NCBI GenBank assembly: GCA_021818865.1 | Contig: JAKASX010000020.1 | Span: forward strand, 1 to 42,584 | Length of the DNA stretch: 42,584 nt | Reading direction: 5' to 3' | Source of the DNA: Acidobacteriota bacterium | GTDB taxonomy: Bacteria > Acidobacteriota > Terriglobia > Acidiferrales > UBA7541 | Shown: positions 5,645-12,265 of the stretch, one piece after another | Layout of the letters: each line of letters starts with the position of its first letter | Position numbering within the stretch: position 1 is the stretch's first letter | Position numbers and translations under genes: made by a program | The notes under the pieces: generated by a model | What the model saw: only the letters and a program-made list of their open reading frames with translations | Databases searched by the model: none | Told to the model about the DNA's origin: nothing

Positions 5645-6754
5645 ATGCGCGGAAAAACGACGAGAGGCCGACGGGGAATCGAACGGGCGAAATACAAGAC
5701 AGCGGGATGGCTGCTCGGCCTGCTGACCGTGTTCGCCTTTGGGCCGCGCGTGGCCGCGCAGCGTCTGATCGCCGCGGCTTCGAGCCCGTCGAATAGCGAT
5801 TGCCTCGCCTGCCACGGCAATCCCTCCTTTTCCATCCAGCTCGGCGACGGAGAAACGCTCTCGCTCTACGTCAACCAGAAAGATTTCGCGCATTCGGTGC
5901 ATTCCGGCCTCGCCTGCACCGATTGCCACAGCGACATCACTTCAATTCCGCACGCGGCCAGGACTTTTCCCAACCGACGTGCCGTCTCGCTCGCCTTCTA
6001 CCAACTCTGCCGGCAATGCCATTTCGAGCAGTACACGCGCCTGCTCGACGGCATCCATTTCGACGCCCTGTCGAAGGGCAACAGCAACGCGCCCACCTGC
6101 GTGGATTGCCACGGCGCTCATTCCATTACGCCGCCCAATCGTCCCCGCACGCGCATTTCCGATACCTGCGCCCGCTGCCACGCCAAGGTCGCCAAGGCCT
6201 ACGCCGGCAGCGTCCACGGTCAGGCTCTCGCCCAGGGAAACAGCGACGTTCCCGTTTGCACCGATTGCCATCACGCCCACGACATCTCGAATCCGCTTTC
6301 TTCCCAGTGGCACCTCTCGATCCCGCAGCTCTGCGCCCGCTGCCACAGCGACCGCAAAACCATGCAGAAATACGGCATCTCCACCGATGTGCTCACCACC
6401 TATCTCAACGATTTTCACGGCATGACGGCTTCGCTCGAGCGCTCCGAGCGCGTCGCTCCCTCCCAATTCACCGTCACCTGCACCGATTGCCACGGCGTGC
6501 ACGACATCGAACGCGTGGATTCTGCGGGACTCGAGCGCATCAAGGGACACTTGCTCGCCGTTTGCCAGCGATGCCATCCCCGCGCGACGGCCAATTTCCC
6601 TTCGGCCTGGATCGGCCACTACGAGCCGAGCCTTCAGCACGCCCCGCTCGTTTACGCGGTCAAGCTGTTCTACGCGTTTTTCATTCCCTTCACGATCATC
6701 GGGCTGTCGCTTCAAATTCTGCTGCATCTCTGGCGCGTGGTGGTGAACCGATGA
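5645..6754 (+). CDS. Membrane-anchored nonahaem cytochrome c
   Basis: The 369-residue protein begins with a basic N-terminus and a hydrophobic export segment (about residues 20-38, WLLGLLTVFAF). Nine CXXCH haem c motifs lie between residues 53 and 311: CLACH, CTDCH, CRQCH, CVDCH, CARCH, CTDCH, CARCH, CTDCH and CQRCH. A membrane helix at about residues 336-360 anchors the C-terminus. Many additional His residues are available as distal ligands. The next gene, a cytochrome b, overlaps it by four bases (ATGA). Nine c haems plus a cytochrome b match the parts of Geobacter CbcL, but here on two polypeptides, as in CbcAB-type pairs. The likely role is electron transfer between the quinone pool and periplasmic or extracellular partners. 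Direction and partner are inference. The ATG at 5645 was chosen because it gives the export signal. Confidence 0.9.
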   Translation: MRGKTTRGRRGIERAKYKTAGWLLGLLTVFAFGPRVAAQRLIAAASSPSNSDCLACHGNPSFSIQLGDGETLSLYVNQKDFAHSVHSGLACTDCHSDITSIPHAARTFPNRRAVSLAFYQLCRQCHFEQYTRLLDGIHFDALSKGNSNAPTCVDCHGAHSITPPNRPRTRISDTCARCHAKVAKAYAGSVHGQALAQGNSDVPVCTDCHHAHDISNPLSSQWHLSIPQLCARCHSDRKTMQKYGISTDVLTTYLNDFHGMTASLERSERVAPSQFTVTCTDCHGVHDIERVDSAGLERIKGHLLAVCQRCHPRATANFPSAWIGHYEPSLQHAPLVYAVKLFYAFFIPFTIIGLSLQILLHLWRVVVNR

Positions 6755-7497
6755 AAGACTACGTGATCCGATTCTCCGTGTGGGAACGCGTCGAGCATGC
6801 CGCGGTGACCGTGCTTTTCCTCGTCCTCGCCGTCACCGGCCTTCCGCAGGAATTTTTCTGGCAGTCCTGGGCGCGCTGGCTGATTCTGGTGATGGGTGGA
6901 ATCGAGCGCGTGCGCTGGGTCCATCGCGGCGCGGGTATCCTGTTTGCCGTTTTGGTCGCGTCCCACCTCGCCATCGCGCTCGTGCAGGTGAGCACCCGCC
7001 GAGTCAAGCCCTCGCTCGTGCCCACGCGCAAGGACTTCCGCGACGCCGTGACGATGATGCGCTATTACCTGCGCCTTGCTGACGAGCCGCCGCGCTTCGA
7101 CCGTTTCGACTATCGCCAGAAATTCGAATACTGGGGCATGGTGATCGGTTCGGCGGCGATCATCGTCACCGGCTTCATGCTCTATTTTCCCGTCGAAACG
7201 GCGCGGCTGCTCCCCGGCGAAGTGATTCCCGCGGCCTTGCTGTTGCACGGCCGCGAAGGTTTGCTCGCCTTTCTCGTCATCATCATCTGGCACCTCTACA
7301 ACGCCCATCTCTCGCCCGATGTGTTTCCCTTCGATCCCAGCATTTTCACGGGAAAAGTGAGCGTCGAGCGCATGGAGAAAGAGCACGGGCTCGAATACGA
7401 CCGCTTGCAGGCGGCCGAGCAGCTGAAACGCGCCGAAGCGGCTCCGGCGAAATCCGCGCCGCCTGCGGGAACCGGCTCCGCGAAGCCCGGCTTGTAA
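6751..7497 (+). CDS. Dihaem cytochrome b subunit (cytochrome b561/FdnI/HydC-like)
   Basis: This 248-residue membrane protein has four main hydrophobic segments. Histidines sit where b-haem ligands are expected: WERVEHAAV at the first helix, WVHRGAG and ASHLAIAL around the second, and LLHGREG and IWHLYNAHL around the last pair. The C-terminal 45 residues are charged and Ala/Pro-rich and lie outside the membrane. The gene overlaps the nonahaem cytochrome by ATGA, so the two products are probably made together. Members of this superfamily exchange electrons with quinones for formate dehydrogenases, hydrogenases and multihaem cytochromes. Here it is probably the quinone-reacting partner of the nonahaem protein. 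It is distinct from the hydrogenase's own cytochrome b at 14001. Confidence 0.88.
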   Translation: MKDYVIRFSVWERVEHAAVTVLFLVLAVTGLPQEFFWQSWARWLILVMGGIERVRWVHRGAGILFAVLVASHLAIALVQVSTRRVKPSLVPTRKDFRDAVTMMRYYLRLADEPPRFDRFDYRQKFEYWGMVIGSAAIIVTGFMLYFPVETARLLPGEVIPAALLLHGREGLLAFLVIIIWHLYNAHLSPDVFPFDPSIFTGKVSVERMEKEHGLEYDRLQAAEQLKRAEAAPAKSAPPAGTGSAKPGL

Positions 7498-7548
7498 GGA
7501 CGAGTTGCAGCGCGGATAAATCCCGAATCCTTCGGGGAGGTCGAGCGG

Positions 7549-9417
7549 ATGGCAGCGCAAGGCGCCAGGCGAGGAAAGCCGCTGAGCTTGCGCGCCCGGC
7601 TCGCGTTGCTCACGCTCGCGGGGACGCTTGCGCCGATCGTCGTTCTCGGCTGGCTGAGCACGTCCAGTGTAACTGCCCTGCAAACGCGCGTGCTCGACGA
7701 GCGCCAGCATCTGGCCGAAAGCGTCGCCGCGCACATCGATTCCGTTGTCAATTCCCAGCTCGAGCTGCTCGAAGCGATTTCCCCCGTTGCCGGCCTTTCG
7801 GCCGCCGCAAAGCTCCAGGTGTCGCAGTCCGATTTGCGCGAAGCCTACGTCCGATCGCGCTTTCTCTCCGGCGTTTTCCTGCTCGATCCGCAGGGCAACG
7901 TCCTGCAAACCGAGCCGCCGAGCAACGCAGCGCCGCTGGCCGACCTCGCGAACTGGGGCGCGGTTCGCTCGGCCATCCAAACCGGCGCGCTCGAAATCTC
8001 GCCTCTCTGGAGCGCGCCGCAAGGCCTGCGCCGGCTTTTTCTCCTCGTGGCGTTACGCTCGCCCCAGGGCGCCGTCGTCGGCGCGGTTGCGGGTGAAATC
8101 GATCCTTCCGGCAGCCGCTTTCGCCATCTGCTGGATTTCGTTCCGCTCGATCCGGGCGAAACGGTGGACTTGGTGGATCAGAACGGCTTCGTGATTGCCA
8201 CCACCGCGCCCAATCGCCTCTATTCCCAGGCGGACCATCGCCATTTTCTCGAGGGTCTCATCGCGCGCCAGCAACCTGCCGTCGGCACTTGCCACAGTTG
8301 CCATCAGAACGGTTCGGCCATGGCTCGCGTCCGCGATGTCATGGCCTTTGCCCCGCTCCCTTCGCGTCCGTCCTGGGGCGTTGACATTCGCCAGCCGGAA
8401 AATATGGCCTTTGGCGCCGCCCTCGCCTTGCGGTGGAAAATTCTCGCTTGGGCGCTTGGCCTGGGTTTGCTCTCGCTGGTATTCGCCTGGGGCATGGCCT
8501 CGAGCGTCACCGCGCCGCTTTCCTTGCTCGTGAAAAACGCCGACCGCATCGCCGCCGGTGAACTCGAAACCCCGATCCCCGAACTCGGCTCGGATGAAGT
8601 CGGCCGGCTCGGCTCGGCCCTCGAACGAATGCGCGCCGCCCTCGGCCAATCGCTCGACGACGTCGCCCGCGCGCGCGACCTTCTGGAAGACCGCGTGAGG
8701 GAACGCACCGCTGAAATTGAGCGTCTCTACGCAGAGCTTCAGCAGCGCGATCGTCTCCGCGCCCGCCTCATCGAGAAACTCATCGGCGCGCAGGAAGAGG
8801 AACGCCGCCGTATCGCCCGAGAATTACACGATGAGACCAGCCAACTCGTCGGCGCCCTGGCCCTGGCGCTCGATACCGCGCTCGCCACGTTGCCCGAAGG
8901 AACTTCGCGCGGAAGATTGGAAGAAGCCAAGGCAATCGCCTTGCGCACACTCGACGGCATTCACCGGCTCAGCTTCGATCTTCGCCCCTCCGTTCTCGAC
9001 GATCTGGGCCTCTTTCGCGCGATCGGATGGTATGCTGACCGCGATTTGCGCCGCCGCGGCATCGCCGTCCGCTGCGAATTCGAGGAGGAGGATATCCGTC
9101 TGCCGTCCAGCGTCGAAAGCGCGATGTTCCGCGCCGTGCAGGAAGCGATCGCCAACATCGTGCGCCACGCCCGCGCTGAAACCGTGCTCATTCAGGGAGC
9201 TTGCCGCGAAGGAAAAGTGACGGTCGAAATCGAAGACGACGGCCAGGGATTCGATCCCGCGACCATTTCTCCCTACGCCAGCAACGGCCGCGGCTTGGGT
9301 CTGGCGGGAATTCGCGAACGCATGGAACTCCTCGGCGGAAGCGCCCTCATCGATTCCGCTCCCGGCCGCGGCACCCGCATCGTTCTCACCGCTCCGATCG
9401 AGGCCCATCATGGCTAA
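7549..9417 (+). CDS. Sensor histidine kinase with extracytoplasmic haem-c motif (NarX-type HisKA_3)
   Basis: The 622-residue kinase has a first membrane helix at about residues 17-40. A Cache-like extracytoplasmic domain of about 250 residues follows, then a second helix at about 294-318, HAMP at about 315-368, a coiled coil, a HisKA_3 dimerisation domain and an HATPase domain. The phosphoacceptor is H427 in RELHDE. ATPase boxes are EAIANIVRHAR, EDDGQGFD and GRGLGLAGIRERM. Near the end of the sensor domain, C248-H-S-C-H252 is a perfect CXXCH motif, so the exported loop could carry covalent haem c. ATG 7549 follows GGGAGG. The gene lies 51 bases after the cytochrome b gene and overlaps its response regulator by eight bases. 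A redox or gas-sensing role is inferred from the motif and the neighbours. Confidence 0.92.
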   Translation: MAAQGARRGKPLSLRARLALLTLAGTLAPIVVLGWLSTSSVTALQTRVLDERQHLAESVAAHIDSVVNSQLELLEAISPVAGLSAAAKLQVSQSDLREAYVRSRFLSGVFLLDPQGNVLQTEPPSNAAPLADLANWGAVRSAIQTGALEISPLWSAPQGLRRLFLLVALRSPQGAVVGAVAGEIDPSGSRFRHLLDFVPLDPGETVDLVDQNGFVIATTAPNRLYSQADHRHFLEGLIARQQPAVGTCHSCHQNGSAMARVRDVMAFAPLPSRPSWGVDIRQPENMAFGAALALRWKILAWALGLGLLSLVFAWGMASSVTAPLSLLVKNADRIAAGELETPIPELGSDEVGRLGSALERMRAALGQSLDDVARARDLLEDRVRERTAEIERLYAELQQRDRLRARLIEKLIGAQEEERRRIARELHDETSQLVGALALALDTALATLPEGTSRGRLEEAKAIALRTLDGIHRLSFDLRPSVLDDLGLFRAIGWYADRDLRRRGIAVRCEFEEEDIRLPSSVESAMFRAVQEAIANIVRHARAETVLIQGACREGKVTVEIEDDGQGFDPATISPYASNGRGLGLAGIRERMELLGGSALIDSAPGRGTRIVLTAPIEAHHG

Positions 9418-10066
9418 GATTCGCGTCCTCATCGCCGACGATCACGCCCTCGTCCGCGACGGCATCAAGGCGCTGCTCGGATTGACCACGGATATCGAAG
9501 TCGTCGGCGAGGCGCGCGACGGCCGCGAAGCGGTCGAGCAGGCCCGCAAACTCAAACCCGACATCGTCCTGATGGACATCGCCATGCCGGGACTCGGCGG
9601 CATCGAAGCCACGCTCGAACTGAAACGCGAAGCGCCTGAAAGTCGCGTCCTCGTGCTCACCCAATACGACGACATCGAATACGTCCGCCGCTTCCTCAAA
9701 ATCGGCATCGCCGGCTATATCCTGAAGCGCATGCTCGGCTCCGAATTGGCCGCGGCCATTCGTTCGGCCGCACGCGGCGGTCTCGTGCTCGATCCGGAAA
9801 TTGCGGCTGAGGCCGTCGAAAGCGCCGCAGAGGAATCAGGCAAGGAAACCGAGGATCTCTACGATCTGCTCACGGACAGGGAAAAGCAGGTCCTGCGCCT
9901 GGTGGCAATGGGGCAGAGCAACAAGGAAGTGGCTGACGCACTCGGCATCAGCGTGAAAACCGCGATGTCGCACCGCGAGCATCTGATGGAAAAGCTCCGC
10001 CTCCGCAATCGAACCGACCTCATCAAATTCGCGATTAAAAAAGGCGTGATCCGCGTGGATCCCTGA
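9410..10066 (+). CDS. NarL/FixJ-type response regulator
   Basis: This 218-residue DNA-binding regulator pairs with the kinase, whose last codons it overlaps. The receiver domain (residues 1-120) has the acidic pair in IADDHALVRDG, the phosphorylation site D56 in VLMDIAMPG, the conserved Thr in VLTQYDD and the Lys in YILKRM. A LuxR-type helix-turn-helix occupies about residues 150-218 (LTDREKQVLRLVAMGQSNKEVADALGIS in the two key helices, quoted in part). Likely targets are the cytochrome operon, the hydrogenase operon downstream, or both. No repeated operator could be assigned by eye. A strong hairpin at 10110-10148 follows the gene, so read-through to the hydrogenase is unlikely to be the main route. 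Confidence 0.94.
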   Translation: MAKIRVLIADDHALVRDGIKALLGLTTDIEVVGEARDGREAVEQARKLKPDIVLMDIAMPGLGGIEATLELKREAPESRVLVLTQYDDIEYVRRFLKIGIAGYILKRMLGSELAAAIRSAARGGLVLDPEIAAEAVESAAEESGKETEDLYDLLTDREKQVLRLVAMGQSNKEVADALGISVKTAMSHREHLMEKLRLRNRTDLIKFAIKKGVIRVDP

Positions 10067-10109
10067 CTCCCGGCAAAGCCAACTGCCCGGCCGGCTGCTC
10101 CGGCGTGAC

Positions 10110-10148
10110 GCGCGCGAGGAGTTTCGCGCTTCGATTCCCCTCGCGCGC
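10110..10148. terminator. Hairpin between convergent genes
   Basis: A perfect 10-bp inverted repeat, GCGCGCGAGG (10110-10119) and CCTCGCGCGC (10139-10148), encloses a 19-base loop. It lies between the ends of the response regulator (+) and the small membrane protein gene (-). There is no U-run on either side, so it may be a Rho-dependent or structure-only terminator or an mRNA 3' stabiliser. Confidence 0.5.
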
Positions 10149-10160
10149 CCGTCTCGGCCC

Positions 10161-10472
10161 TTACTGCCGGTCGCGTCCGGCAGGAGCATGCACCGGTTCG
10201 GCTTTGGTTTCGCCAGCACCGCGCAGCGCCGGCGCCACTCGGCTGCCGAGGGCGCGCAGCAGCATCGCGAAGCCGATGAAGGGAAGGAAGACCACGTAGG
10301 CGACGCTCAGGACCAGCGCGGTAGGGAGAACCAGGATGCCCGGAAGCCGGACGTACTGACATTCGCTTCCGCCTGGCAGCGTGCCCGTCTTTCCGTCCAC
10401 CGCTACGATCTCCCACTCGCCTTTCTTCCAGTAGAATCCGCCTTTCGTTTCCGTTCCGCCGATGTATTTCAT
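10161..10472 (-). CDS. Hypothetical single-helix membrane protein
   Basis: I do not recognise this 103-residue protein. It begins MKYIGGTETKGGFYWKK, has a short polar region with one Cys (GGSECQYVRLPG), then one long hydrophobic stretch of about 27 residues (ILVLPTALVLSVAYVVFLPF onward), and a disordered Ala/Gly/Arg C-terminus. AAGGGGAA lies about seven bases before the ATG, which supports translation. It runs opposite to the respiratory genes on both sides and converges on the response regulator. The balanced composition of residues 1-75 argues that it is a real gene rather than a shadow frame. A role in the hydrogenase or cytochrome system is possible only by position. Confidence 0.65.
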   Translation of the reverse strand: MKYIGGTETKGGFYWKKGEWEIVAVDGKTGTLPGGSECQYVRLPGILVLPTALVLSVAYVVFLPFIGFAMLLRALGSRVAPALRGAGETKAEPVHAPAGRDRQ

Positions 10473-11134
10473 TGCCGTTCCCCTTTCTCTTTCTTTCCCT
10501 CTTTACGACCTCACTTTAGAACCATCCCGTTTTTTTCGAAATCGGGCGATGCCCGATTCGCGCCGGCAAGAGTACCGATAGACTCGGGAAAAATTCCCGG
10601 CCTCGCAGTGAAAAACGTGGCAGCGCGAATGGCTTTTTCTCCGAATCAGCCACCGGATTGTGTTGCGTTTCGAGCGCCCGCCGGGCTGCAGCTTCCACGC
10701 GTGCGGGAAATGCGACCATAACGCTCGCGATTGCCGCCATTTGGACGCGATGCCGCTCCGCTTGCGCGGAATAACCCAAGTCGCTGCGCCAAGTCGCGCA
10801 AGACCGCCCCGCCCGCCCTCGCTGCCGTTCCTGCGCCGCCGCTCGCCCCGGGCCCAAGTAAAGCAAAGTCTTGCAACTTGTTAGAAATTTTGGAATAGCC
10901 CTGCCGTGGAACACCACGTGCCTAGGTTTTACAAACAAACCATTGCGGGCAACCGGGCGGCAAGTTCGGTTCTCTCCCGTTTGCTCCCGGCGAGGCGTCT
11001 ATTGGCGTTTGACGGGAACCATCGCGCTTTTCCGATGCATCGCTCGCCAGACGACCGCCCGCGCGAGTTCCCTCTGTTCGGCCTCTCCCCGTTGCCACGG
11101 AACTTTCCATCAGCTCTTTTCGGGAGGTGAAACG
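10473..11134. promoter_or_regulatory. Intergenic region between the divergent small gene and the hydrogenase operon
   Basis: This 660-base stretch separates two divergent genes and must hold the hydrogenase promoter unless transcription comes from upstream. I see no convincing gene in it. Three inverted repeats stand out: AATCGGGC-GAT-GCCCGATT at 10540-10558, CGGGAA-AAA-TTCCCG at 10585-10599, and CGTGG-AACA-CCACG at 10905-10918. An AT-rich patch at 10868-10898 contains TTGCAA followed 17 bases later by a poor -10 (AATAGC). The first repeat lies about 70 bases upstream of the small gene start and could be an operator. No sigma-54 (GG-N10-GC) element with good flanks was found. Confidence 0.4.
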
Positions 11135-12265
11135 ATGCCCCCACTCGATCAAGACCTGCCCAGCGCACTCGAGGCCCGCGGCGTTTCGCGCCGCGATTTC
11201 CTCGAATTCTGCAGCCTGATGCTGGCGACGCTGGCCTTGCCCACACGCTACCTCGGCAAGGTGGTTTCCGCACTTTCCCAGCCGCAACGTCCGGTGCTCG
11301 TCTGGATGGAATTTCAGGATTGCGCCGGAAACACCGAATCCATGCTCCGCTCCAGCCATCCTTCCGTCGCCGAGGTGGTGCTCGATCTGCTTTCCTGGGA
11401 ATATCACGAAACGATCATGGCCGGTGCGGGCAAGGCCGCTGAAACCACGCTCCAAAACGTGGTCAAAAACCACAAAGGCAAATACATCGCCGTCGTGGAA
11501 GGCGCGATTCCCACTGCGGACGATGGCGTCTATTGCACCATCGCCGGCAGAACCGCGCTCGATATCGCCCGCGAGGTCTGCTCGAATTCTGCCGCGAATA
11601 TCGCCGTCGGCGCCTGTGCGTGGGATGGCGGTCTGGTCCGCGCCAATCCCAATCCCACCGGCGCGCTCGGTCTCGAGGAAGCCGTGCCCGGCGTCCCGGT
11701 CGTCAACCTGGGCGGTTGTCCGCACAATGTCGCCAACACCGCCGCCGTACTCGTCCACTATCTGACGTTTCACGAGATGCCGGCTCTCGATCCCTACAAT
11801 CGTCCGCTCTTTGCCTACGGCCAGATCATCCACGATCAATGCCAGCGGCGCGCGCATTACGACGCCGGCCGCTTCGTCGAGGAGTGGGGCGACGAAGGCA
11901 GCCGCAAAGGCTGGTGTCTTTACAAAATGGGCTGCAAGGGACCCGAAGCCACTTACAACTGTCCTGTGGTTCGCTGGAACGACGGCACCAGCTGGCCGGT
12001 GCAATCGGGCCACGGTTGCATCGCCTGCGCCGCGCACCGCTTCTGGGATTGGTCCTCGCCCTTCTACAAAAAACTGCCGAACGTTCCCGGATTCGGCGTC
12101 GACGTCACCGCCGAGGAAGTCGGCTGGGGCGTCGTCGGCGTCGTTGCCGGTGTGACCGCGGCCCACGCGGTTGGCACCGTGATTCGCGCCCACAAGGAAG
12201 CGTCCGAAGGTTCCAAGGAAAGCGGCTCGAAGCCCGAATCCAAATCCGCTTCGCCGGAAGCGTAG
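11135..12265 (+). CDS. hyaA: Group 1 [NiFe] hydrogenase small subunit, Tat-exported
   Basis: This 376-residue subunit would carry electrons from the Ni-Fe site through three Fe-S clusters. A Tat signal (SRRDFLEFCSLMLATLAL, residues about 20-37) predicts folded export with the large subunit. A C-terminal hydrophobic helix (GVVGVVAGVTAAHAVG, about residues 330-350) anchors it. Distal and medial cluster motifs are intact: IIHDQCQRRAHYDAG, GWCLYKMGCKGP, YNCPVVRWN and HGCIACAAHRFWD. For the proximal cluster, C63, the Cys in GVYCTIAG and the Cys in LGGCPHN are present, but the usual second Cys is N66 (DCAGNTES instead of C-x-x-C). The start is ATG after GGGAGG. The large subunit starts 9 bases downstream. 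Subgroup assignment by eye is not safe. Confidence 0.95.
   Translation: MPPLDQDLPSALEARGVSRRDFLEFCSLMLATLALPTRYLGKVVSALSQPQRPVLVWMEFQDCAGNTESMLRSSHPSVAEVVLDLLSWEYHETIMAGAGKAAETTLQNVVKNHKGKYIAVVEGAIPTADDGVYCTIAGRTALDIAREVCSNSAANIAVGACAWDGGLVRANPNPTGALGLEEAVPGVPVVNLGGCPHNVANTAAVLVHYLTFHEMPALDPYNRPLFAYGQIIHDQCQRRAHYDAGRFVEEWGDEGSRKGWCLYKMGCKGPEATYNCPVVRWNDGTSWPVQSGHGCIACAAHRFWDWSSPFYKKLPNVPGFGVDVTAEEVGWGVVGVVAGVTAAHAVGTVIRAHKEASEGSKESGSKPESKSASPEA

Follow-up and report, generated by a model that had tools for sequence, protein, structure and literature searches.

A probable haem c site in the double-Cache sensor of a histidine kinase, variable within a conserved cytochrome-regulator module of Acidobacteriota

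INTRODUCTION

Haem-c sensing by a Cache domain is already known from one described family, sCache_heme (PF11845; DUF3365/Tll0287-like), whose members include GSU0582, GSU0935, and Tll0287 (Deshpande et al., preprint of February 2026, PMC12889525). The sensor in that family is a single Cache domain with a CXXCH motif in an insert between strands beta3 and beta4, and the family was presented as the product of a cytochrome-fragment insertion and as the first Cache to hold a cofactor covalently. A signalling member of the family binds NO tightly, and standard dCache domains are described as binding small ligands without a cofactor (PMC12889525). A second source (PMC8396549) describes Geobacter haem-c chemoreceptor domains that lose a Met ligand when they bind CO and NO, and it names eight two-component proteins with haem-c motifs in Geobacter sulfurreducens (GSU0283, GSU0303, GSU0356, GSU0599, GSU1302, GSU2314, GSU2816, and GSU2916). 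A covalent haem in a dCache fold is not described in the literature that could be searched.

Here, we analyse a sensor histidine kinase encoded in the window, i.e., the whole 42,584-nucleotide stretch of acidobacterial DNA under study. What is probably new is that a dCache kinase senses by means of haem c, as a component that varies among orthologues while the surrounding module of cytochrome and regulator genes is conserved.

RESULTS

A dCache histidine kinase carries a CXXCH motif outside the cytoplasm

The kinase gene and the features of its product are as follows:

7549..9417, forward strand: sensor histidine kinase, 622 aa, dCache-HAMP-HisKA_3-HATPase_c (open reading frame and Pfam domains)
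7666..8433, forward strand: extracytoplasmic double-Cache sensor, residues ~40-295 (dCache_1 match, flanked by two hydrophobic spans)
8236..8238, forward strand: codon of H230, candidate distal haem ligand (His in 11/11 kinases with CXXCH and in 2/12 without it)
8290..8304, forward strand: CXXCH, C248-H-S-C-H252 (read from the sequence; kept in 10 orthologues)
8290..8331, forward strand: insert carrying the motif, approximate extent, residues 248-261 (6-12 residues absent from motif-less orthologues, flanks align)
8494..8643, forward strand: HAMP, residues 316-365 (Pfam)
8800..8997, forward strand: HisKA_3, residues 418-483, with the phosphoacceptor His427 within ARELHDE (Pfam and residues read)
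9115..9399, forward strand: HATPase_c, residues 523-617 (Pfam)

Hydropathy places two membrane spans at residues ~15-38 and ~296-316, and since these flank the motif and HAMP begins at residue 316, the CXXCH is extracytoplasmic. This agrees with the original prediction, which had located the motif between two membrane helices at 8283-8310, an interval that contains its codons. By profile, the region between the spans classes as a dCache-type domain: dCache_1 (PF02743) scored 43.3 bits on the window kinase, slightly below the cut-off of 45, and 50.6 bits on the orthologue L007, above it, where the match ran over profile positions 3-237 of 240. In its domain architecture the protein resembles the dCache_1 sensor kinases, as do its motif-less orthologues, and it differs from the standard ones in the insert with CXXCH and a paired His. 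A PDB sequence search with the kinase family profile returned nothing useful (best E 0.6), and a structure prediction from two sequences (window and L002) was unusable (pLDDT 38).

The catalytic half is of another kinship. HisKA_3 (39.3 bits) and HATPase_c (61.3 bits) both exceeded their cut-offs, and the neighbouring regulator combines Response_reg (96.9 bits) with GerE (69.6 bits), so that a HisKA_3 kinase is paired with a NarL/LuxR-type regulator, as in the nitrate/nitrite systems NarX/NarQ-NarL. The sensor domain, however, differs from that of NarX and NarQ, whose NCBIfam equivalogs scored far below cut-off on the kinase (53 bits versus 578 for NarX, 70 versus 553 for NarQ). The NarX type that had been proposed for the whole kinase thus holds for its catalytic half only, and we dropped it for the sensor half.

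Within the kinase, the motif reads VGTCHSCHQNG, with C248 encoded at 8290-8292, C251 at 8299-8301, and H252 at 8302-8304. C248 and C251 are the only cysteines of the sensor; the remaining two (residues 509 and 552) are cytoplasmic. Upon shuffling the kinase protein, a CXXCH arose in 8 of 20,000 shuffles. The insert lies between the helix around ADHRHFLEGLI and the strand DVMAFAPL, which leads to the second membrane span (TM2), and in motif-less orthologues ~6-12 residues are gone as a block at this site while the flanks remain alignable.

A histidine 18 residues upstream accompanies the motif

Homologue searches covered whole genomes of Acidobacteriota and yielded 11 CXXCH kinases, the window's included, from four families in two classes. 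Seven belong to the window's class (G000, G002, G003, and G004 of the window's genus; G595 and G628 of family f6; G093 of f8) and four to another (G239, G340, G552, and G561 of f72); sensor identity of the orthologues to the window kinase goes down to 28%. Twelve homologues with the same architecture lack the motif (G151, G194, G780, G781, G272, and G782 of f44; G556, G565, and G530 of f100; G525 of f99; G215 and G241 of f66). No relatives were found in the plasmid and viral-contig searches, and a scan of genome contigs gave one relative, 90% identical.

Upon comparing the two groups, we found 53 residues of the N-terminal half to be invariant in the 11 CXXCH kinases. The rarest of these among the 12 motif-less kinases were H252 (0/12) and W35, C248, and C251 (1/12 each), followed by H230, I184, and L294 (2/12 each). 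Outside the motif, H230 is the sole His or Met that is invariant in the CXXCH kinases yet not general in the motif-less group, and its spacing of 18 residues upstream of the CXXCH is fixed in all 11. The co-occurrence of H230 and CXXCH gave a Fisher value of 7e-5, a figure that is uncorrected for relatedness, the rows being related and the independent contrasts few. H230 is accordingly our best candidate for a distal haem ligand. Of the two ligand types that the original prediction had named, His is the one that is conserved; Met265 was dropped, as it is present in only 8/11 CXXCH kinases.

Cytochrome c maturation recognises its substrates by a CXXCH in the periplasm. With four Cytochrom_C_asm matches in the window's genome and a nonahaem cytochrome among the products of the operon, a periplasmic CXXCH should receive haem. 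Because the motif is kept in 11 kinases, a His co-occurs with it, the sensor has no other cysteines, and Cytochrom_C_asm is present, a covalent haem in the sensor, as originally proposed, is the best explanation of these sequence patterns, and attachment by itself we regard as probable. That the CXXCH is instead a chance or vestigial motif without a cofactor would fit its absence from orthologues in the same module, but the low count among the shuffles and its retention together with H230 in 11 kinases of widely diverged sensors make this highly improbable.

The same four invariant residues could also form a metal site (Cys2His2, e.g., Zn), or the cysteines a disulfide switch, with no haem at all. 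Two sequences lean this way: the kinase of G782, with CXXC and H230 and no last His, and a distant protein, L019, with CSFC. Against it, H252 is invariant in 11/11 and needless for a disulfide (H249, within the motif, is not invariant), and the CXXCH is a maturation signal in an organism that encodes maturation proteins and multihaem cytochromes. We hold a haem-free site to be rather unlikely.

H230 is kept in two motif-less kinases, those of G782, where the CXXC is retained as CVSCG, and of G556, which has no cysteines there; both could be relics of loss. The G782 kinase (G782:C545, L129/L143) lies beside the same type of regulator and has the H230 equivalent and the CXXC at equal spacing, with Gly for the last His; this may be a haem site that has decayed or a site of another kind. 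In the more distant dCache protein L019 (G429), the CSFC stands at roughly the same position ahead of the a-x-P-L strand, and no His comes after it.

The kinase belongs to a conserved cytochrome-regulator module

The kinase gene has the following neighbours:

5645..6754, forward strand: nonahaem c-type cytochrome with a C-terminal membrane helix (nine CXXCH; Cytochrome_C7 and paired CXXCH matches)
6751..7497, forward strand: b561-type membrane cytochrome (Ni_hydr_CYTB; formate dehydrogenase gamma-like; profile matches)
9410..10066, forward strand: NarL-type response regulator, receiver and LuxR/GerE output (Pfam; 8-base overlap with the kinase gene, 9410-9417)

The cytochrome reading frame is open from 5417, and its likely start is at 5645, ahead of a signal-peptide-like segment. 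A [NiFe] hydrogenase begins at 10871, and between it and the regulator lies a 103-aa open reading frame on the reverse strand (10161-10472), with a hydrophobic stretch and no Pfam match. The arrangement described earlier, a kinase between a nonahaem cytochrome pair and a [NiFe] hydrogenase and overlapping its regulator, is thus what we found in the window. Across genomes, its two flanks fared differently. A tblastn search with the window's genes found the four-gene module (nonahaem cytochrome c, cytochrome b561, kinase, regulator) complete at 15 of 18 other Acidobacteriota loci, in the same order and shared alike by motif-bearing and motif-less loci. The incomplete ones are two that end at contig edges (L002, L107) and one with kinase and regulator only (L116). 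Each of the 16 other cytochrome reading frames examined has exactly nine CXXCH. The hydrogenase, by contrast, adjoins the module only in the window, L113, and L115, i.e., at 2/18 other loci, and we dropped it as a constant partner, although the two may go together in some lineages. In L113 and L115 (G556, G530), the cytochrome gene is immediately preceded by the [NiFe] hydrogenase operon, which flanks the module on the opposite side to that in the window.

An extra stretch separates the b561 and kinase genes in f72, f100, and G272. In L105, where the Pfam match was checked, this stretch (6438-8045) encodes an M56/M48-type membrane peptidase and a small membrane protein of ~200 aa, the latter without a Pfam match. 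Genes for the peptidase and the small membrane protein occupy the same place in L106, L108, L113-L115, and L117 and are absent from the window's module. In L109 (G628), a further cytochrome with 11 CXXCH and a b561-type gene form a divergently oriented pair beside the module (9273-11216). Shared DNA words were sought upstream of the cytochrome gene, and no convincing regulator site emerged.

Homologues without the cysteines in an unchanged context, which had been named as evidence against a haem, do exist (G151, G194, G556, G565, G530, G272, and G241), but they lack the insert, and nearly all of them lack H230 as well. Since cysteine-less orthologues occur in the same module, a haem is not essential to the regulator, while a haem in the motif-bearing clade is still compatible with them. 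The haem site thus looks like a lineage-variable addition to this regulator.

In the kinase-core tree, the 11 CXXCH kinases fall on one side of a weak branch (support 52/80), which allows a single origin of the motif. The whole-kinase tree calculated without the insert needs two changes, and one clade is not rejected (p-AU 0.36); for the remaining three genes of the module, the tree also needs two changes, with a single clade mildly rejected (p-AU 0.04). Two histories, one gain with later loss or two gains, remain compatible with these trees.

The sensor probably lies outside the described haem-c Cache family

The window kinase shares with sCache_heme an extracytoplasmic Cache sensor, a short CXXCH insert, and HAMP plus signalling outputs that include histidine kinases. 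CXXCH conservation is likewise strict, at 11/11 in the motif clade, and the motif is absent from same-module orthologues. The two differ in that the sensor here is a dCache and there a single Cache, and in the distal ligand, which is Met, Cys, or water in sCache_heme and proposed to be His here. One could still regard the kinase as a divergent PF11845 member with an extra Cache module and no separate acquisition, since a short CXXCH insert in a sensor of the Cache superfamily is common to both. Upon aligning the kinase family with a profile of 25 acidobacterial PF11845 domains (hhalign), only the motif region aligned, at a probability of 17.5%, and this weak similarity fell to 0.13% once the motif was masked; profiles of CXXCH kinases and motif-less orthologues aligned at 99.7%. 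The PF11845 profile itself matched neither the kinase (E up to 1) nor anything else in the whole genome. Moreover, by sequence pattern, the motif follows an a-x-P-[LI] strand in PF11845, whereas in the window's family it precedes one. Common descent of the two sites seems correspondingly doubtful. Because the motif-masked similarity vanishes and the motif precedes the strand (strand equivalence being judged from sequence), a separate acquisition is suggested: the window sensor is probably outside PF11845, with its motif in a different loop.

The G. sulfurreducens two-component proteins named in the available part of PMC8396549, which leaves their sensor types unstated, resemble the window kinase in joining signal transduction to c-type haem motifs, and Geobacter is a metal reducer rich in multihaem cytochromes. 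An unnoticed dCache precedent among them is possible, the comparison being with their description.

DISCUSSION

Taken together, our data are consistent with a cytochrome-like CXXCH segment in the membrane-proximal Cache module, between the module's helix and the strand to TM2. C248 and C251 would bind the haem covalently, with H252 as the proximal and H230 as the distal ligand. The conserved second His suggests a low-spin haem, probably bis-His, which would fit a redox gauge better than an open gas site. The kinase may regulate the co-encoded nonahaem-cytochrome/b561 module, and its haem would most likely read the redox poise or electron flux of the periplasmic chain. A change in oxidation state or ligation could move the strand that connects to TM2 and be relayed by HAMP to the kinase and on to the NarL-type regulator; the position of the motif just before the strand towards TM2 and HAMP makes such a lever plausible.

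The main competitor to a redox gauge is a real haem that senses a diatomic gas, where NO or CO would displace H230 or fill an open distal site. The signalling sCache_heme member with tight NO binding (PMC12889525) offers a precedent, as do the Geobacter domains that take CO and NO and lose their Met ligand (PMC8396549). The conserved second His, in contrast, suggests a six-coordinate haem, and the conserved partner of the kinase is a multihaem electron-transfer pair; no NO-handling gene was recognised among the genes compared. We therefore see gas sensing as unlikely, though the most serious of the alternatives. For a c-type, bis-His haem that gauges the redox state of the adjacent cytochrome module, we estimate a probability of roughly 0.5. 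The redox signal is read from context and ligand type only, and the same-module orthologues without the motif, the Gly for the last His in G782, and the small number of independent lineages count against it, as does the negative outcome of the search for a regulator site.

A broader proposal is more tentative still, and we would put it somewhat short of even: that covalent haem-c sensing arose a second time, independently, within the Cache superfamily, in a double-Cache kinase with a different loop and a distal His, serving as a redox gauge of a multihaem quinol-cytochrome chain, and gained or lost while the operon stayed constant. If a haem indeed sits in a dCache, probably in a different loop, the same kind of insertion event would have occurred more than once. 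Orthologues that have the haem site and orthologues that lack it, with the operon unchanged, would then provide a natural experiment on what a haem adds to an existing sensor, and the same contrast bears on the means by which bacteria monitor a multihaem electron-transfer chain.
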